From Wenjunlia vitaminophila DSM 41686 (lineage in GTDB: Bacteria > Actinomycetota > Actinomycetes > Streptomycetales > Streptomycetaceae), in NCBI RefSeq assembly GCF_000380165.1, contig NZ_KB904658.1, positions 1 to 64,000 of the forward strand: a DNA stretch of 64,000 nucleotides, in the 5' to 3' direction. Numbering within the stretch: position 1 is the stretch's first letter; each line of letters begins with the position of its first letter. A program made the position numbers and the translations under genes. A model generated the notes under the pieces. That model saw nothing but the letters and a program-made list of their open reading frames with translations. It was not told where the DNA came from and did not search any database. Shown in pieces: positions 25,336 through 35,295 of the stretch.

Positions 25336-26157
25336 TTAGCGGCGTCCGGCGCGGACGTAGCGGGTGAACAGGTAACCATCGTCCTCCAGGAGGCCGGACA
25401 GGGTGAACCGGTGCGGCTCGGCGATGTCGGGACCGTTCGTGATCCGCGCGGAGTCGCCCGACGCGATCAGCGGTGACACGCTGAGGCAGAGCTCGTCCAG
25501 CACGTCGGCGGAGGCGAACTGGGCGAGCAGCCGGGGGCCGCCCTCGGTGAGCAGCCGGGTGTGGCCGCGGTCGACCAGGGCCCGCACCACCTGCGCCGCG
25601 TCCGCCGTGGTTCCCTCGCCGGCCAGCACCACCTCGGCGTGCTGCCGGGCGGCCAGCAGGCGGTCGGCGGGGGCCCGGGCGCCGGTGAGCAGGATGGTGG
25701 GCACCACGGGCCGGGTGAACAGCGGGCCGGTGAAGTCCAGGTCCAGGCTGGCACTGACCACGGCCATCACCGGCGCGGGTGACTGTCCGAGCGCGGCACG
25801 GCGGGCCGCGAACGCCTTCCGGGCCCTGGCCGGCCCGTACCCCTCTCGCCGGACCGTCTCGGCGCCGACGATGATCACGTCCGCCAGGGCCCGCAGCACC
25901 CCGAAGAGGCGCATGTCCGCGGCGCAGGACAGGGGCTCGGAACGCCCCTGGTGGTGGGCGGCTCCGTCCAGGCTCGCGACCATGTTCGCCCGGAGCCACG
26001 GGCGGCCGGCCCCGGTGGTGGCGGGGTAGGCGTACGCGTCGGCCAGGTCGTCGAGGGAGTCCGGGCCGTCGGGCGGGCGGGGCGACTCGCCCGGGGGAGG
26101 GGCCGTGGCGGCCGGCGGGGAGGACGGGCCGGTGGGGGTGGGGAACAGGCGGCGCAT
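25336..26157 (-). CDS. pyrimidine reductase family protein (RibD C-terminal / DHFR-like fold)
   Basis: This 273-residue protein has the RibD_C/dihydrofolate-reductase-like fold. Landmarks are WLRANMVASLDGAAHHQGRS, the NADPH-binding segment ADVIIVGAETVRREGYGPAR and TRLLTEGGPRLLAQF with the family EGG motif. The C-terminus is typical (DELCLSVSPLI, HRFTLSGLLEDDGYLFTRY). It lacks the RibD deaminase domain, so riboflavin synthesis is only one possibility; another reductase substrate is as likely. The ATG at 26157 follows the shortest sensible start and leaves 37 bases to divergent zapE. Confidence 0.8.
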   Translation of the reverse strand: MRRLFPTPTGPSSPPAATAPPPGESPRPPDGPDSLDDLADAYAYPATTGAGRPWLRANMVASLDGAAHHQGRSEPLSCAADMRLFGVLRALADVIIVGAETVRREGYGPARARKAFAARRAALGQSPAPVMAVVSASLDLDFTGPLFTRPVVPTILLTGARAPADRLLAARQHAEVVLAGEGTTADAAQVVRALVDRGHTRLLTEGGPRLLAQFASADVLDELCLSVSPLIASGDSARITNGPDIAEPHRFTLSGLLEDDGYLFTRYVRAGRR

Positions 26158-26194
26158 ATCCGGCAGTCTGTCACGCGACGTAAGGTTGAGGGCT

Positions 26195-27319
26195 GTGTCC
26201 TCACGAGCCCACCCCTCCGAGCGAGGCCCCGCCGAACCGATAACCGGACAACCTGCGGAACGGCCGGCTGGAGCACCGGCAGGCCCGGTGCGCCTCAGCG
26301 ACCGCGCCCCCCGCGTTCCGGCGGACCGGCTGGTCGCCGACATGGTGCCGCCGCCCCGGTTCGACGGCGTCAGGTTCGCCACCTACCACCCCGACCCGGC
26401 ACAGCCCAGCCAGGCCGCCGCGGTGACCGCGCTGGAGTCGTTCGCGAGCACCTTGGGCGGCCGGCCCCCGGGTGGCGGGACCCCGGGTGGTGGCGGCCGG
26501 CGGCGCTGGTTCCGGCGGGCGGCCCCGGGCTCCGGCCCGGCCGGCGTCTACCTCGACGGCGGCTACGGCGTCGGCAAGACGCACCTGCTGGCCTCACTGT
26601 GGCACGCCGCCCCGGCGCCCAAGGCGTTCGGCACCTTCGTGGAGCTCACCAACCTGGTCGGTGCCCTGGGGTTCCAACCCGCGGTGGCCGCGCTGTCCGG
26701 TCACCGGCTGCTGTGCATCGACGAGTTCGAGCTCGACGATCCCGGGGACACGGTCCTGGTCTCCACCCTCCTCGGGAAACTGGCGACGGCGGGGGTGCGG
26801 CTCGCCGCCACCTCCAACACCCTTCCCGACCGGCTGGGTGAGGGCAGGTTCGCGGCGGCCGACTTCATGCGGGAGATACAGGGCCTGTCCGCGCACTTCT
26901 CCACCGTCCGGATCGACGGTGAGGACTACCGGCACCGCGGTCTCCCGCGGGCCCCGAGCCCACGCACGGACGCCGAGGTCACCGCGGCGGCCGAGCGCAC
27001 CCCGGGGGCCAGTCTGGATGACTTCCCCGACCTGCTCGCCCACCTGGCCACGGTCCACCCCAGCCGCTACGGCGCCCTCACCGACGGCGTCCGCGCGGTC
27101 TTCCTGCGCGGCGTCCGGCCCGTCCCCGACCAGGCCACGGCCCTGCGGCTCGTGGTGCTCGCCGACCGGCTCTACGACCGCGAGCTGCCGGTCCTGTCCT
27201 CCGGGGTCCCGTTCGACGGTGTGTTCGACCAGGAGATGCTGGCCGGGGGGTACCGCAAGAAGTACCTCCGGGCGATCTCCCGTCTGAGTGCCCTCGCCCG
27301 GGAGGGAGAGGGCCTGTAG
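26195..27319 (+). CDS. zapE: cell division protein ZapE (AFG1-like ATPase)
   Basis: This 374-residue P-loop ATPase of the AFG1/ZapE family has Walker A GGYGVGKTHLL and Walker B LLCIDEFELDD. The sensor segment is AATSNTLPDRLGEGRF and the family C-terminus AISRLSALA. In E. coli ZapE binds FtsZ; the actinobacterial role is not established. The GTG at 26195 has GAGGG shortly upstream; a longer frame starts in the divergent gene. It shares a 37-base divergent promoter space with the reductase gene. Confidence 0.88.
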   Translation: MSSRAHPSERGPAEPITGQPAERPAGAPAGPVRLSDRAPRVPADRLVADMVPPPRFDGVRFATYHPDPAQPSQAAAVTALESFASTLGGRPPGGGTPGGGGRRRWFRRAAPGSGPAGVYLDGGYGVGKTHLLASLWHAAPAPKAFGTFVELTNLVGALGFQPAVAALSGHRLLCIDEFELDDPGDTVLVSTLLGKLATAGVRLAATSNTLPDRLGEGRFAAADFMREIQGLSAHFSTVRIDGEDYRHRGLPRAPSPRTDAEVTAAAERTPGASLDDFPDLLAHLATVHPSRYGALTDGVRAVFLRGVRPVPDQATALRLVVLADRLYDRELPVLSSGVPFDGVFDQEMLAGGYRKKYLRAISRLSALAREGEGL

Positions 27320-27467: not shown

Positions 27468-28838
27468 ATGTCCGTCTCTCGTCGTCATCTCCTCGCCGGG
27501 GCCGGTGCCCTCGGCGCAGGCATCACTTTCACCGGGGCACTCGACCAACTGTTCGTCGGCCACGCCGCCGCAGCCGAGGTCGGCGGGCACAGCGGCTACG
27601 GCCCGTTGGTGCCGGACCCCGCCGGGCTCCTGGACCTGCCCCGCGGCTTCAGCTACCAGGTGCTGTCGAGGGAGGGCGAGCCCCTGCTCTCCGGCGAGGG
27701 TCCCGTGCCCAGCAACCACGACGGCATGGCGGCGTTCCTCGGTCGCGCCGGCCACACGTACCTGGTCCGCAACCACGAGAACCGGCCAAGATCACGGGTG
27801 CGGGTCCCGGCCATCGAGGGGCTCACCTACGACCCCGCCGCAGAGGGCGGCTGCACCGTGCTGGAGCTCGACCACACCGGCAGGCCGGTTGACGAGCGGG
27901 TGGGCATCGCCGGCACCGGAGTCAACTGCTCAGGTGGCCCGACCCCCTGGAACACCTGGCTGACTTGCGAGGAAACCGAGGACAAGGCAGGCGTCAACGG
28001 CTACACCAAGGACCACGGCTTCATCTTCGAGGTCGACCCCCGGGACCCCCACAGGTCCGGGGCGCACCCGCTGACCGCGATGGGCCGCTTCCAGCACGAG
28101 GCCGTGGCCGTGGACCCCACGACCGGGGTGGTCTACGAGACAGAGGACGCCTTCGCCAAGCCCTTCGGCCTCTACTACCGGTTCCTGCCGAACAAGCCCC
28201 GCGGGGGCCCCGGCAGCCTGCGCGCCGGGGGTGAGCTCCAGGCGATGCGGGTGCCGGGCGTTCCGGACCTGTCCGTGGTGCAGGAGGCCGGGACCAGCTT
28301 CGACGACGTGGAGTGGGTGCCGGTGCCGGACCCGCTGGCCGCCCAGACACCGATCCGGCTCCAGGACTTCGGCCCCGGCGGCATCACCCACGCCCAGAAG
28401 CTGGAGGGCGCCTACTGGGGCAACGGGCGGTCGTACTTCGTGTCCAGCTTCGCCCGGACCAAGGACGGCTCCCGCGCCACCCACTTCGGGCAGGTCTGGT
28501 CGTACAACCCCAGGTCCAACCGGCTCACCCTGGAGGTCGTCTTCGGGCCCGACACCGACACGCAGATGCCCGGGGAGTCCCCGGACAACATCGCGCTGTC
28601 CCCGAACGGCGGCCTGATGGTCTGCGAGGACGGCGGCGGTGACCAGTACGTGTACGGCGTGAGCCGGACCGGGATGGTCTACCCGATGGCCCGCGGCCGG
28701 CAGAACCTCGGCACCCCCGAGAGCCCGGACTACGGTGAGTTCGCAGGTGTCGCCTTCTCGCCGGACGGACGGACCATGTATGTCAACTGCTATACCCCAG
28801 GGACCACCTTCGCGGTGACCGGCCCCTGGCGCGGCTGA
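27468..28838 (+). CDS. PhoX-like (DUF839) Tat-exported phosphatase
   Basis: This 456-residue secreted protein opens with a twin-arginine signal (SRRHLLAGAGALGAG, residues 4-18). It carries the PhoX/DUF839 core: NHDGMAAF and RNHEN, the NCSGGPTPWNTWLTCEE motif with the iron-binding Cys expected of PhoX, HEAVAVDPTTGVVYETED, and PDNIALSPNGGLMVCED. Family members are Ca/Fe-dependent phosphomonoesterases of the six-bladed propeller type. The ATG at 27468 gives an ideal Tat N-region. It is smaller than the second PhoX in this window (689 residues) and belongs to a different subgroup. Phosphatase activity is inferred from the family. Confidence 0.8.
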   Translation: MSVSRRHLLAGAGALGAGITFTGALDQLFVGHAAAAEVGGHSGYGPLVPDPAGLLDLPRGFSYQVLSREGEPLLSGEGPVPSNHDGMAAFLGRAGHTYLVRNHENRPRSRVRVPAIEGLTYDPAAEGGCTVLELDHTGRPVDERVGIAGTGVNCSGGPTPWNTWLTCEETEDKAGVNGYTKDHGFIFEVDPRDPHRSGAHPLTAMGRFQHEAVAVDPTTGVVYETEDAFAKPFGLYYRFLPNKPRGGPGSLRAGGELQAMRVPGVPDLSVVQEAGTSFDDVEWVPVPDPLAAQTPIRLQDFGPGGITHAQKLEGAYWGNGRSYFVSSFARTKDGSRATHFGQVWSYNPRSNRLTLEVVFGPDTDTQMPGESPDNIALSPNGGLMVCEDGGGDQYVYGVSRTGMVYPMARGRQNLGTPESPDYGEFAGVAFSPDGRTMYVNCYTPGTTFAVTGPWRG

Positions 28839-28965: not shown

Positions 28966-31488
28966 TCAGGTGCGGGCCAGCAGGGCCACCGGATGCCGGT
29001 CGAGCAGCTCGGTGAGCGGGGCCCGGCCGGTGACCGGGCGATCGGTCAGCAGGTCGGTCCAGTTGCCGTCGGGGAGCGGCAGCACGGTGTTGCGCCAGCC
29101 GCCGTTCCTGGCCAGGCGGTGCGCCAACCGGGTGACGACGGTGAGGACCGAGCCCGCCCGGAGGAACGCGACCGCGTGCACCGCGGCCGGCCCGTGGGCG
29201 TACACCGGCGTGTACCCGGCGTCCGCACCGAACCACTCCGGGCGGGCGCGGCGCAGCCGCAGGGCGGTGGCGGTGACCAGGAGCTTCTCCTCGCCGAGAC
29301 CGTGCGGAACGGCCCCCGGCCCCCCGTCGTCGAGGCGCCGCAGCGCCCGGGCGAGCTCGTCGAACCGCGCCGGCCGGAGGCCGTCAGGCTCGGCGAGGCA
29401 GTGCCACAGCGTCTCGGTGCCCTGGTACACGTCGGGCACCCCGGGCATGGTCAGGTGCACCAGGGCCGCGCCGAGCACGTTGGCCCGCTCGGGCTCGGCG
29501 CACCAGCGCGCGAAGTCGGCGGCGACGCCGCGGGCGCGGGTCGCCACGGTCATTGCGAAGTCCAGCACGGCGGTCTCGTAGGTGCGGTCCTGGCTGGTCC
29601 GACCGGTGTGCACCCCCGCCTCGCGGAGCGACCCGCGCACCGCGTCCACCAGCCGGTCCGGGGGTTCCAGGTCCCAGGCCGTCAACAGGGTCTGCCAGAT
29701 CAGGTACTCGGCGGCGCGGTCCGGGACCCCGCCGCGGCGCAGGTGCGCGTGGCTGGCGGAGGCGAGCTCCAGCCAGCTCCGCCACGCCCGGGGCACCTCG
29801 GAGAGCACCGCCGCCCTGGCCCGCACGTCGGCGCTGCGCCGGGTGTCGTGGCCGGACAGCACGGTGCCGGTGCCCGGCCAGTCCCGTTGCAGGTGGGAGC
29901 AGAACGCGTGGAACTCCTGCGGGTCGGTGCCCGGCCCCGCGGGATCACCGCCGGCCTCGCCCCTGGACAGCAGCGGGAACCAACGGTGGTGGGCGACGCC
30001 CTCCACCGCCGTGGCCCGTACCGCCGCGCACACCTGGGCGAACCGGCCGACGAACTCGTCCTTGGCCGGGCTGCGCCCCAGCGAGCCCAGCGCCAGTCCG
30101 CGTACCACGTCCACCGCCGCGGCCTCCTCGGCCACCACGAACGCGTAGCCGGCGTTCTCGCTCGCCCGGTCCAGGGCCCGCACCGCTCCTGGCGGGGCGG
30201 GTTCGCCGGGCACCACGTAGGGCCGGTGGGTGGGGAACGAGGCGAGCAGCTCGGTGACCGCGGTGTGAAGGGAGCCGGCGCCGTGGTCGCGCAGCGCCAG
30301 GTCCTGCGCGCAGATCCGGTACGCGAGCCGGGTGAGCCGGTCCACCTCCGCGGCCAGCTCGGAGGCGAGGACCTCGCGGGTGGCGCGCCGGGCGGTGCTG
30401 GTCCAGCTCGTGTGCGGCTCGCCGGGGTCCGTCGCGGTGAACTCCCGGTAGACGGTGGTGAGCTCGGCGAGGCCCACCGGGCAGAGGAACAGCCCATCCA
30501 CCCGGTGCAGCGCCTCACGGCCGGTGGTTCCGGCGCAGCACCAGTCGGCGGGCAGCCGTTCGGTGCCGGTGAGCACCTTCTCCACCACCGTCCACACCGG
30601 GTGGGGCGCCGTGGGTCCCCTGCCTGCGGGTTCCCCGGCGCCGACCGGACTGCCCGTCCCGGTGGTCGTGGTCGCCCGCTGCCGGTGTCGGGCGGTGGCC
30701 TCGGTGAGCCGGCGCAGGTAGCCCCGGGGGTCGGCGAGGCCGTCCGCGTGGGTGACGTGGAGACCGCTGATCACCCCCTCGCGCACCAGCCCCAGCAGGA
30801 GGCCGTGGGTGGCCCGGAACACCTCGGGGTCCTCCGTGCGCAGGCCGATCGTTCCGCTGCTGGTGAGGAACCGGCGGTAGTTGAGCTCGGTGCGGCCGAC
30901 CCGCCACCAGGCGAGCCGGTACCACTGCTGCTCCACCAGGGCGGGCAGGGGCAGTTCCTCGGTGCCGGCACGGAGGGGGAAGGCGTGGTCGTGATAGCGC
31001 AGGATCGTTTCCCCATCCCAGGTGGCCCGTTCGATGCGGTCCACCTCCGCGCCGAGCCGGTCCCGGAGGAACGGCAGCAGGACGCGGTTCCGCTGCGCCG
31101 CCCAGTCGATGTCGAACCAGTGGGCGTAGGGGGAGGACGGGCCCTCGCGCAGCACCGACCACAGGGGCCGGTTGAGGTGTTCGGGCGCCGGAACCGCCAT
31201 GTGGTGGGGGACCACCTCGACGACCAGGCCCATGCCGTGGGCGGCGGCGGTCCCGGCCAACGACCGTAAGCCCCGCTCACCGCCGAGCTCGACACTGATC
31301 CTGGTGTGGTCCACCACGTCGCGGCCGTGGGGGGAGCCGGGAGCTGCCTGCAGGACGGGCGGCAGGTGCAGGTGGGAGATGCCGAGCGAGGCCAGGTGGG
31401 GGACGGCGGCCTCGGCCGCGGCGAACGGGAAGTCCGGCTGCAACGGGAGACGATAGGTCGAGCCGGGCAGGGGCGGCTGAGTCGTCAT
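28966..31488 (-). CDS. treY: malto-oligosyltrehalose synthase homologue with altered GH13 active site
   Basis: This 840-residue protein is collinear with TreY, the GH13 enzyme that isomerises the reducing end of maltodextrin to trehalose. The N-terminus (STYRLPLQPDFPF), YAHWFDIDW, NYRRF, region III VVEKVLTG (E303) and region IV SGHDTRRSADVRAR are recognisable. Region I reads EVVPHHMA instead of D-x-VPNH. Region II reads GLHVTHADGLADP, with His244 and Thr246 where TreY has Arg and the nucleophile Asp. Transglycosylation by the usual mechanism is therefore doubtful. The ATG at 31488 gives the conserved start. It follows glgX on the same strand after 86 bases, and no treZ is present. Confidence 0.85.
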   Translation of the reverse strand: MTTQPPLPGSTYRLPLQPDFPFAAAEAAVPHLASLGISHLHLPPVLQAAPGSPHGRDVVDHTRISVELGGERGLRSLAGTAAAHGMGLVVEVVPHHMAVPAPEHLNRPLWSVLREGPSSPYAHWFDIDWAAQRNRVLLPFLRDRLGAEVDRIERATWDGETILRYHDHAFPLRAGTEELPLPALVEQQWYRLAWWRVGRTELNYRRFLTSSGTIGLRTEDPEVFRATHGLLLGLVREGVISGLHVTHADGLADPRGYLRRLTEATARHRQRATTTTGTGSPVGAGEPAGRGPTAPHPVWTVVEKVLTGTERLPADWCCAGTTGREALHRVDGLFLCPVGLAELTTVYREFTATDPGEPHTSWTSTARRATREVLASELAAEVDRLTRLAYRICAQDLALRDHGAGSLHTAVTELLASFPTHRPYVVPGEPAPPGAVRALDRASENAGYAFVVAEEAAAVDVVRGLALGSLGRSPAKDEFVGRFAQVCAAVRATAVEGVAHHRWFPLLSRGEAGGDPAGPGTDPQEFHAFCSHLQRDWPGTGTVLSGHDTRRSADVRARAAVLSEVPRAWRSWLELASASHAHLRRGGVPDRAAEYLIWQTLLTAWDLEPPDRLVDAVRGSLREAGVHTGRTSQDRTYETAVLDFAMTVATRARGVAADFARWCAEPERANVLGAALVHLTMPGVPDVYQGTETLWHCLAEPDGLRPARFDELARALRRLDDGGPGAVPHGLGEEKLLVTATALRLRRARPEWFGADAGYTPVYAHGPAAVHAVAFLRAGSVLTVVTRLAHRLARNGGWRNTVLPLPDGNWTDLLTDRPVTGRAPLTELLDRHPVALLART

Positions 31489-31574: not shown

Positions 31575-33698
31575 TCACTGGGGGCGTTGCAGCACCACGA
31601 GGGACCGGCCGGTCACCGTCAGCCGTTCGCCCGCGCGCACCTCGCGCCCCGGCCCCACCGACGGGCCGTCCTCCAGGGCGGTGTCCACCACCACCTGCCA
31701 CCGGCGGCCGTGGTCGTCGGGCACCAGGAAGTCCAACGGCTCACCGCCGGCGTTGAACATCAGCAGGAACGAGTCGTCGGTGACCCGTTGTCCCCGGGCG
31801 TCGGGCTCCGAGATCGCGTTCCCGTTCAGGAACACGGTCAGGGACCTGGCCTGAGCCGCCTGCCAGTCCTGCCGGGTCATCTCCACCCCGTCCGGGGTGA
31901 ACCATGCGATGTCCGACAGTTCGTCGTGGGCGCCGGTGGCGGGCCGGCCGTCGAAGAAGCGGCGTCGGCGCAGCACCGGGTGCTCCCGCCGCAGCCGCAC
32001 CATGGCGCGGGTGAACGCGTGGGTCCGCGTGGCCAGCGAGGACTCGCCCGGGTCCGGCCAGTGCACCCAGGACAGCGGGTTGTCCTGGCAGTAGGCGTTG
32101 TTGTTGCCCCGTTGGGTGCGGGCGAACTCGTCGCCGTGGGACAGCATGGGCACCCCCTGGGAGAGCATCAGGGTGGCCAGGAGGTTGCGGATCTGGCGGG
32201 CGCGCAGCGCCAACACGCCCGCGTCGTCGGTGGGCCCCTCCGCCCCGCAGTTCCACGAGCGGTTGTGGTTCTCCCCGTCCCGGTTGTCCTCGCCGTTGTC
32301 CTCGTTGTGCTTGTGGTCGTAGGACACCAGGTCGTGCAGGGTGAAGCCGTCATGGCAGGTGACGAAGTTGATCGAGGCGAGGGGGCGGCGGCCGTCGCTC
32401 TGGTAGAGGTCGGACGAGCCGGTCAGCCGCGAGCCGAACTCGGCCAGCTTGGCCGGCTCGCCGCGCCACAGGTCACGCACGGTGTCCCGGTACTTGCCGT
32501 TCCACTCCGTCCACAGCGGCGGGAAGTTGCCGACCTGGTAGCCGCCCTCGCCGACGTCCCACGGTTCGGCGATCAGCTTGACCTGGCTCACCACCGGGTC
32601 CTGTTGCACGAGGTCGAAGAACGAGGACAGCCGGTCCACCTCGTGGAACTGCCGGGCCAGGGTCGCCGCCAGGTCGAACCGGAAGCCGTCCACGTGCATC
32701 TCGGTGACCCAGTAGCGCAGCGAGTCCATGATCAGTTGCAGCACGTGCGGGCTGCGCATCAGCAGGGAGTTCCCGGTGCCGGTGGTGTCCTCGTAGTACC
32801 GGCGGTCGGCGGCGAGCCGGTAGTACGACGCGTTGTCCAGGCCGCGGAACGACAGGGTGGGACCCAGGTGGTTCCCCTCCGCGGTGTGGTTGTAGACGAC
32901 GTCCAGCAACACCTCCATCCCCGCCTCGTGCAGTGCCCGCACCGCCGCCTTGAACTCCTGCACCTGCTGGCCCCGGTCACCGAGCGAGGCGTAGGCCCCG
33001 TGGGGGGCGAAGTAGCCGATCGTGTTGTAGCCCCAGTAGTTGGCGAGCCCGGCGTCCGCCAGGCGGTGGTCGTGGACGAACTGGTGCACGGGCATGAGTT
33101 CCAGCGTGGTCACGCCGAGGCCGGTCAGGTGGTCGATCACCGCGGGGTGGGCCAGGGCCGCGTAGGTGCCCCTGATCTCCTCGGGCAGCCCGGGATGGAG
33201 CATGGTGAGGCCCCTGACGTGCGCCTCGTAGATCACGGTGTCGTGGTAACCGTGCTGCGGCGGCCGGTCGTTGCCCCAGTCGAAGTAGGGGTTCACCACC
33301 ACCGAGGACATGGTGTGCGGCGCCGAGTCGAGGTTGTTCCGCGAGTCCGGGTGGCCGAAGTGGTAGCCGTACACCGCCTCGTTCCAGTCGATGGTGCCGC
33401 TCATCGCCTTGGCGTAGGGATCGAGGAGCAGCTTGGCCGAGTTGCAGCGGTGCCCGGCACGGGGCTCGTAGGGGCCGTGCACCCGGAAGCCGTACCGCTG
33501 TCCCGGCATCACCCCGGGCAGGTAGGCGTGTCGGACGAAGGCGTCGGTCTCCCGCAGCTCCACCGCGGTCTCCGACCCGTCCTCGTGGAGCAGGCACAGC
33601 TCGATCCGCTCGGCCACCTCTGAGAAGACCGCGAAGTTGGTGCCCGCGCCGTCGTAGGTGGCGCCGAGCGGATACGCGCGTCCCGGCCAGACCTGCAT
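31575..33698 (-). CDS. glgX: glycogen debranching enzyme GlgX/TreX
   Basis: This 707-residue isoamylase-type GH13 protein hydrolyses alpha-1,6 branches of limit dextrins. The CBM48 domain is N-terminal (YPLGATYDGAGTNFAVFSE). The GH13 regions are intact: DVVYNH, GFRFDLA with the nucleophile Asp, LIAEPWD with the acid/base Glu, and FVTCHDGFTLHDL. The ATG at 33698 opens at MQVWPG, the usual actinobacterial N-terminus; the open frame continues upstream to 34172 without support. It is first in a glgX-treY unit, which would normally feed trehalose synthesis from glycogen. Confidence 0.95.
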   Translation of the reverse strand: MQVWPGRAYPLGATYDGAGTNFAVFSEVAERIELCLLHEDGSETAVELRETDAFVRHAYLPGVMPGQRYGFRVHGPYEPRAGHRCNSAKLLLDPYAKAMSGTIDWNEAVYGYHFGHPDSRNNLDSAPHTMSSVVVNPYFDWGNDRPPQHGYHDTVIYEAHVRGLTMLHPGLPEEIRGTYAALAHPAVIDHLTGLGVTTLELMPVHQFVHDHRLADAGLANYWGYNTIGYFAPHGAYASLGDRGQQVQEFKAAVRALHEAGMEVLLDVVYNHTAEGNHLGPTLSFRGLDNASYYRLAADRRYYEDTTGTGNSLLMRSPHVLQLIMDSLRYWVTEMHVDGFRFDLAATLARQFHEVDRLSSFFDLVQQDPVVSQVKLIAEPWDVGEGGYQVGNFPPLWTEWNGKYRDTVRDLWRGEPAKLAEFGSRLTGSSDLYQSDGRRPLASINFVTCHDGFTLHDLVSYDHKHNEDNGEDNRDGENHNRSWNCGAEGPTDDAGVLALRARQIRNLLATLMLSQGVPMLSHGDEFARTQRGNNNAYCQDNPLSWVHWPDPGESSLATRTHAFTRAMVRLRREHPVLRRRRFFDGRPATGAHDELSDIAWFTPDGVEMTRQDWQAAQARSLTVFLNGNAISEPDARGQRVTDDSFLLMFNAGGEPLDFLVPDDHGRRWQVVVDTALEDGPSVGPGREVRAGERLTVTGRSLVVLQRPQ

Positions 33699-34056
33699 GG
33701 CGGCGGCCCACCTCCCTGTGTCGATGCCCGAGTGCCCGGTCCTGGCGGCGGGTGGGGCCCGCCCCGCGCGCCACCAGGGGGGCGGCTCCCGTGTGCCGTT
33801 CCCGACGGGGAGTCGGTCCCCGACGGACGTCCAGGCGCATCCTCGCCCAGAACGGGCGGCCCTGGTCGGTTTTCGGAAGATCTTCGCCCGTTTGCACACC
33901 TGCGGGACGCCTCGCCCGACACCGGCGCGCCATCCGCAGAGTCCACCCCGACATCGGGCTGCGCACGCCCCCCCGGGGGCAGTACCCTTGATCGCTGCCG
34001 GACGGCAGACGGTCGCGACGGCCTTGGACTGAGGCCGTGGGAAGGCGGTGCCGGTA
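33699..34056. other. divergent spacer between glgX and the HEPN gene
   Basis: There are 358 bases without a supported gene. It contains a 10-bp palindrome GAAGATCTTC (33877-33886) in its most AT-rich part and must hold two divergent promoters. I could not define -10/-35 elements with confidence. Confidence 0.4.
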
Positions 34057-35295
34057 GTGACCTCCTCGGGACTGGTCCTCCCCTCCTCCGACGGCGGCCA
34101 CCAGGGAAACCAGGGTCGTGATGAGGGAGTGCTCAGCACCGTGTCAGCTCCCCGTCCCTCGGAGATAGGCACCGAACTGGACTGGGCAGCCGCGGACTGG
34201 GAGGAGGTGCGCCGCCGTGCCCGCCGTGCGGGTCGCGCCTACGTGTGGCTCAACCTCGTCGAGCAACGGCTCCGGGCCGTGGTCGACGCGGTGCTGCGAC
34301 CGGTGTACGAGCCGGTGCACGGCGAGGAGTGGGTGGTCGCCGCTGCCGGTCCCGCGGGCCACGAGTGGGTGCAGCGCGCCGCCGCCGTACGCGAGGTCAG
34401 TCGGCGCAAGGGGTACCTCCTCGATCCCGCGGACGACGACCTGCTCATATTCCTGACACTGCCCCAGTTGCGCGAGCTCGTGGTCCAGCACTGGCCGTGC
34501 TTCGACCCGTTCCTCGCCGACCGCCGCGACCTCGAACTCGCCCTGGACGAGCTCGAGGTGGCCCGCCACGTGGTCTCCCGCAACCGGGCGCTGTCGGAGA
34601 CCGTGCTGGCCCAGGCGGAACGGGCCGCCCGGCGACTGCTCGACCTGCTCGGCGCCAACGCCCACGGGGCCGTGGACACCCGGCTGCCGGTGGACGTGGT
34701 GGAGGAGCTGGTCGGCGACCGCTACGCCGACGTCGTCGGGGTCCACCCGGACCGGGTCCGGTTGCAGCGCCAGGTCCCCGTGGAGGACCTGTTCCGCGGT
34801 GCGCACCGGCTGGACGCGATCGGGATCGGCCTCAACCTGCTCACCCAGAACTACTCCGGCCGCCGCTTGGTCCGCCTCGCCGAGTCGGGCTGTCGGGTGC
34901 GGCTCCTCTTCCTCAACCCGGCGAGCAGCGCGGTGCGTCGCAGGGAGCGGGAACTGGGCCTGGGCCGGGGCGAGCTGAGCCGCTCGGTGGAGATGAACAT
35001 CATGCACATGCGCCGGGTCAGGTCCCGGCTGCGGGACACCGCCGGCTTCGAGATCCGGGTCTTCGACGAGACCCCCCGGTTCACCGCCTACCTGGTGGAC
35101 GGCGACAGCCCGGAAGGCCTGGCCATCGTCCAGTCCTACCTGCGCAGGAGCCGTGGCATGGAGTCCCCGGTGCTGGTGCTCCGCAACGGCGGCCGTGAGT
35201 TGGCGCACGGCGAGTTGGCCGGGGAGCACGGCCTCTTCGAGATCTACCGCGAGGAGTTCGAGGGGGTCTGGGCCGACTCCCGGGCAGTGTCCTGA
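34057..35295 (+). CDS. SAV2148-type HEPN domain protein
   Basis: This 412-residue actinobacterial protein of unknown function is labelled HEPN-domain containing in relatives. It opens SSGLVLPSSDGGH and has strongly conserved segments RAYVWLNLVEQRLRAVVDAV, VQRAAAVREVSRRKGYLLDP and FTAYLVDGD, with a PLD/HKD-like tail that includes SYLRRSRGMESPVLVLRN. No clear HEPN ribonuclease Rx4-6H motif can be seen. The GTG at 34057 is preferred to 34048 because GGGAAGG is only 2 bases from the latter. It is divergent from glgX and upstream of the exonuclease gene. Confidence 0.75.
   Translation: MTSSGLVLPSSDGGHQGNQGRDEGVLSTVSAPRPSEIGTELDWAAADWEEVRRRARRAGRAYVWLNLVEQRLRAVVDAVLRPVYEPVHGEEWVVAAAGPAGHEWVQRAAAVREVSRRKGYLLDPADDDLLIFLTLPQLRELVVQHWPCFDPFLADRRDLELALDELEVARHVVSRNRALSETVLAQAERAARRLLDLLGANAHGAVDTRLPVDVVEELVGDRYADVVGVHPDRVRLQRQVPVEDLFRGAHRLDAIGIGLNLLTQNYSGRRLVRLAESGCRVRLLFLNPASSAVRRRERELGLGRGELSRSVEMNIMHMRRVRSRLRDTAGFEIRVFDETPRFTAYLVDGDSPEGLAIVQSYLRRSRGMESPVLVLRNGGRELAHGELAGEHGLFEIYREEFEGVWADSRAVS

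Follow-up and report, generated by a model that had tools for sequence, protein, structure and literature searches.

A TreY homologue without its catalytic nucleophile, probably a pseudoenzyme, kept after loss of treZ in a Wenjunlia lineage

Pseudoenzymes of the GH13 family are known from eukaryotes. In plants, ISA2 (GH13_11) is a non-catalytic isoamylase that binds ISA1 and varies at the nucleophile and at further catalytic positions (PMC12510319). It is a paralogue beside the active ISA1 and is conserved across the green lineage, and the complex of both has been shown. In streptomycetes, TreY together with TreZ reconverts stored glucan to trehalose when sporulation begins, and de novo synthesis runs through OtsA (PMC5247666). 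Structures of TreY (TIGR02401) were solved from Arthrobacter ramosus (6LCV/6LCU) and Sulfolobus (1IV8). Among the papers searched, neither a TreY pseudoenzyme nor a trehalose-related pseudoenzyme in Streptomyces was found.

The stretch of 64,000 nucleotides analysed here (the window) carries a treY gene that resembles both systems in part. With canonical TreY it shares full-length homology, the predicted fold, the glgX-treY order and the orthologous position, but nucleophile and region II Arg are missing, 26 invariant columns are broken, an insertion lies between strands 4 and 5 and no TreZ partner exists. Similar to ISA2, it is a GH13 alpha-glucan protein located beside an active debranching enzyme and probably retained by selection, with nucleophile and catalytic residues lost in an intact (predicted) GH13 fold. 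In contrast to ISA2, which belongs to another GH13 subfamily, the dead copy is the sole TreY and occurs in one species, with GlgX as a candidate partner. We consider a lineage-specific pseudoenzyme, which lost catalysis together with its pathway and kept its fold, the most probable explanation, at a probability of roughly 55%.

The sister species W. tyrosinilytica (genome G001, L041) served for the syntenic comparison. The gene and its neighbours in the window are:

26105..27319, plus strand: AFG1-like ATPase gene (zapE; PF03969; 76% identity to the sister's), left edge of the treZ-bearing interval of the sister
27468..28838, plus strand: PhoX-type (alkaline) phosphatase gene (PF05787, 330 bits), by synteny at the site of treZ and two further genes in the sister
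28966..31488, minus strand: degenerate treY, putative TreY pseudoenzyme of 840 amino acids plus stop (TIGR02401, 700 bits; single copy; AlphaFold2 model)
31575..33698, minus strand: intact glgX, upstream of and co-directional with treY at a gap of 86 bp (TIGR02100, 985 bits at a cut-off of 641; 85% identity to the sister's)

Reading of the open frame from 31488 to 28966 gave an ATG start and 840 uninterrupted codons plus stop, in agreement with the full-length protein described in the initial annotation. Neither stop codons nor frameshifts interrupt the gene, its GC3 of 0.944 is normal, and all length differences to the W. tyrosinilytica orthologue are in frame, with zero frame-breaking indels. 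The TreY protein is changing faster than its neighbour, with 63.6% identity to the sister compared to 85.3% for GlgX. A search against the NCBIfam profile TIGR02401 places it in TreY with 700.1 bits at an equivalog cut-off of 498.65. The acid/base Glu, the HD of region IV and the predicted fold are likewise those of a TreY, whereas the nucleophile and Arg, the family motifs and the partner TreZ are not. Annotation based on TIGR02401, which is exceeded by far, would call the protein trehalose-forming and assign the species a TreYZ route in error.

The partner gene is missing throughout the genome. In W. tyrosinilytica a canonical TreY (RIDHPDGL) occurs with treZ about 4 kb away, in the order zapE, an 8.8 kb interval with treZ, a lipoprotein-like gene and a LuxR-type regulator, then treY and glgX. 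In the window the order is zapE, PhoX, treY and glgX, and treZ is gone from the syntenic site. In the sister's contig, the PhoX gene had no match across the first 50 kb. The absence of an adjacent treZ had been noted before; the genome-wide profile search extends it, as no TreZ exceeded the cut-off of 538.8 bits in this 99% complete genome and the best match, a GlgB, reached 158 bits. A second canonical TreY, and with it the second treYZ pair that had been proposed as a check, was not found by genome-wide search either, and the glgX described as intact is so by its profile score. In comparison, of the 249 Streptomycetaceae genomes sampled, 237 have a TreZ and 241 a TreY. GlgE, TreS, the maltokinase Mak, GlgB, OtsA and two GlgX are kept; with TreZ lost and these retained, only the recycling branch is lost.

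Conservation was assessed with 76 aligned Streptomycetaceae TreYs, in which 189 columns are at least 98% conserved and are called invariant here. The segments of the active site and family motifs, all on the minus strand, read as follows:

31201..31218: region I (residues 91-96), EVVPHH for DxVPNH; D91 and N95 invariant in the 76 relatives
Residues 203-208: NYRRFL for NYRRFF; F208 invariant in the 76 relatives
30739..30765: region II (residues 242-250), GLHVTHADG, from the alignment to the relatives and 6LCV
30580..30582: acid/base Glu303 (region III, VVEK), kept and invariant in the relatives
29986..30012: TreY motif K-x-VEDT-x-FY (residues 493-501), broken by K493T, D497G and Y501H in the alignment
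29836..29850: region IV (residues 547-551), HD kept, K550R and preceding T546G in the alignment, with pLDDT below 50 at 547-549
29377..29394: VDPDNRR motif (residues 699-704), broken by V699A, D700E, N703G and R704L in the alignment

Region II reads GLHVTHADGL, compared to R-x-D-H-P-D-G-L in every aligned relative. The invariant Arg, nucleophile Asp and Pro are replaced by His244, Thr246 and Ala248, and in the alignment with the solved TreY 6LCV, ungapped across region II, the Arg and Asp of the enzyme pair with His244 and Thr246. D91, N95, F208, R244 and D246 are present in 76/76 relatives and all five are replaced, whereas E303, H547 and D548, equally present in all 76, are retained. This substantiates the replacements that the initial annotation had named in regions I and II and in the NYRRFF segment, as well as the retention of Glu303 and the region IV HD, and its proposed alignment to a characterised TreY leaves the loss of the nucleophile standing. 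The alternative it had offered, Asp249 as nucleophile, fails: D249 pairs with the second Asp of RxDHPDGL, which is shared by all relatives, and therefore cannot be a displaced nucleophile.

The damage to the active site is far wider than previously listed. K493, D497, Y501, N703 and R704, also invariant in the 76 relatives, are all replaced, the GTTGYD motif is broken by Y324R and D325E, and overall 26 of 189 invariant columns (14%) are affected. In a larger set of 108 relatives, 25 of 178 such columns are broken, compared to one in the median relative; more than seven breaks were seen only in two incomplete copies, of which L018 lies at a contig end and L004 is cut by the fetched stretch. The losses are uneven by residue type and hit mostly residues of a functional kind: 5 of 11 invariant Asp, 3 of 4 Lys, 4 of 10 Tyr and 2 of 3 Asn are gone, and none of the 17 Gly, 11 Ala, 9 His and 9 Glu. 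Several replacements are multi-step and gain His or Arg (Y56R, Y324R, W630R, N95H, R244H, Y421H, Y501H). Judged by GH13 chemistry, any maltooligosyltrehalose synthase activity of the protein is expected to be negligible.

Additionally, the alignment revealed an insertion that is missing in the W. tyrosinilytica TreY and in the TreY consensus:

30601..30693, minus strand: in-frame low-complexity insertion of about 30 amino acids (residues ~266-296) between beta strands 4 and 5

The AlphaFold2 model of the protein reached a mean pLDDT of 87.7 and a pTM of 0.90, with pLDDT below 50 at residues 277-295 within the insertion. In a Foldseek search against the PDB the top five matches were all TreY structures, with a TM score of 0.95 to 6LCV by target length. 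The TreY fold is thus predicted to be kept; as the model draws on relatives, it supports a stable fold without proving it and is no test of stability. Low confidence (pLDDT below 50) also coincides precisely with the retained His-Asp-Thr of region IV (residues 547-549, 29842-29850), beside T546G and K550R.

The dN/dS check suggested earlier detected constraint. In a codon model with ten taxa, omega on the treY branch of the window is 0.12-0.17 compared to 0.07 elsewhere; for the estimate of about 0.12, the lnL drop gives an interval of roughly 0.07-0.21. These values are rough as synonymous sites are near saturation. An omega of 1 on this branch is 15.7 lnL units worse and is rejected. For glgX, omega on the same branch is 0.04 compared to 0.05 elsewhere. 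At the most conserved columns, 30 of 199 are changed in this TreY and 9 in the sister; at columns of 90-98% conservation the numbers are 37 and 34 of 161, so that the excess is nearly absent, and for glgX no such excess is seen. The 90-98% class lies below the neutral expectation of a matching simulation (P 0.003-0.008); the lower classes summed do not (P 0.08-0.16).

A brief neutral decay of the whole gene, conditioned on an open frame, was simulated for comparison. Among the 26 lost sites, 7 two-step replacements were observed compared to about 0.8 simulated, a count that none of the 1500 simulations run per setting attained. The polar bias of the losses (P 0.003-0.011) and the zero losses of Gly, Ala, His and Glu (P about 0.003 or less) also depart from neutrality. 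Taken by itself, the open frame was rejected as proof of constraint, since after enough neutral change 2-34% of the simulations, depending on the mutation model, remain without stops, and 26-34% if mutation is GC-rich. A pseudogene under free neutral decay was rejected as well, given the result for omega = 1, the lack of stops and frameshifts and the uneven losses. The gene is not a simple recent pseudogene, and short neutrality of the whole gene is rejected. Purifying selection on the rest of TreY is supported, and the data fit a prolonged relaxation at the active site while the other parts of the protein continued to be constrained.

In the favoured reading, the TreY-TreZ route from glycogen-like alpha-glucan to trehalose was abandoned in this Wenjunlia lineage, with treZ missing beside glgX-treY. 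TreY has lost the nucleophile and the Arg next to it, along with many further conserved polar positions, and the remaining protein probably stayed under purifying selection with the predicted TreY fold. By analogy, its present role would most likely be non-catalytic and within glucan metabolism, for example holding alpha-glucan chains or binding the operon neighbour GlgX. Of the three readings the initial annotation had left side by side, the pseudoenzyme is supported along with the loss of the nucleophile, the glucan-binding regulator appears plausible, and nothing specific speaks in favour of a new chemistry, as the losses extend to many conserved polar residues beyond the catalytic ones. 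A stronger form of the regulator reading, in which TreY was remodelled after loss of its partner into a non-catalytic alpha-glucan-binding subunit or GlgX regulator, as a bacterial counterpart of the plant ISA2, and the active site was reshaped by selection and not by mere decay, seems rather unlikely to us.

The retention in one species after loss of treZ also looks like a slowly eroding gene. Such a functionless relic, under weak or fading constraint and heading to a pseudogene with its frame open by chance and high GC, is a serious contender that we nevertheless judge somewhat improbable. A missing partner gene, a pathway made redundant by the retained OtsA, TreS and GlgE, 14% broken invariant columns, the faster evolution compared to glgX (63.6% against 85.3% sister identity) and a low-complexity insertion in a core loop all agree with it, and if neutral mutation is GC-rich, a frame free of stops has a fair chance (26-34%). 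It has to be reconciled, however, with the rejection of omega = 1 over the branch, the lack of frame-breaking indels and the rejection of brief whole-gene neutrality by 7 two-step changes against 0.8, the polar bias and the nil losses of Gly, Ala, His and Glu (P about 0.003 or less). The retained Glu303 and His547-Asp548 could in turn point towards a reshaped pocket that, with its new His and Arg, catalyses another glucan reaction without a covalent nucleophile, and the several multi-step losses gaining His or Arg might be an outcome of positive selection. We regard this as very improbable: many conserved polar residues are lost besides the nucleophile, the kept Glu, His and Asp match a general retention, neither a substrate nor a partner gene suggests itself and the changes are unique to one species. 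An artefact, be it a wrong frame, an assembly error or D249 acting as nucleophile, found no support and is hardly credible in view of the clean frame of 840 codons, losses that are substitutions spread along the gene, and the invariance of the DGL Asp in all relatives.

To place the pseudoenzyme among other genomes, 395 genomes of Streptomycetaceae and 395 actinobacterial genomes from across the class (overlapping sets, about 750 in total) were scanned by DNA motif for a TreY region II whose nucleophile codon is replaced. Within this scope no second replaced-nucleophile TreY was found; the motif excluded codons with G in first position (Ala, Gly, Val, Glu), so that such replacements are missed. 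Hits in G133, G679 and G441 were chance matches in unrelated or antisense frames. Accordingly, one genome only carries the dead TreY, and the sister species is canonical. With its canonical sister, the visible loss of the partner and a clean syntenic comparison, the locus offers a testable example of an enzyme outliving its pathway and a clean natural experiment, though in a single lineage.

One further Streptomycetaceae genome, G239, contains a TreY (C3:91297-93858; L128, L133, L136) with TreZ undetected genome-wide. Similar to the window, TreY was kept; unlike there, its active site is intact, with 1 of 189 invariant columns broken, and it was rejected as an intermediate. Since this TreY is intact without TreZ, loss of treZ need not bring immediate decay.

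Two minor observations concern the glgX genes and their surroundings. The second GlgX of the genome is likewise intact (G000:C26:14672-16981, L139; TIGR02100, 951 bits) and lies about 10 kb from glgB. Divergent from the glgX of the window, a SAV2148-like HEPN + DUF5919 protein is encoded at 34048-35295 on the plus strand; it is strongly conserved, with about 90% identity in the sister.
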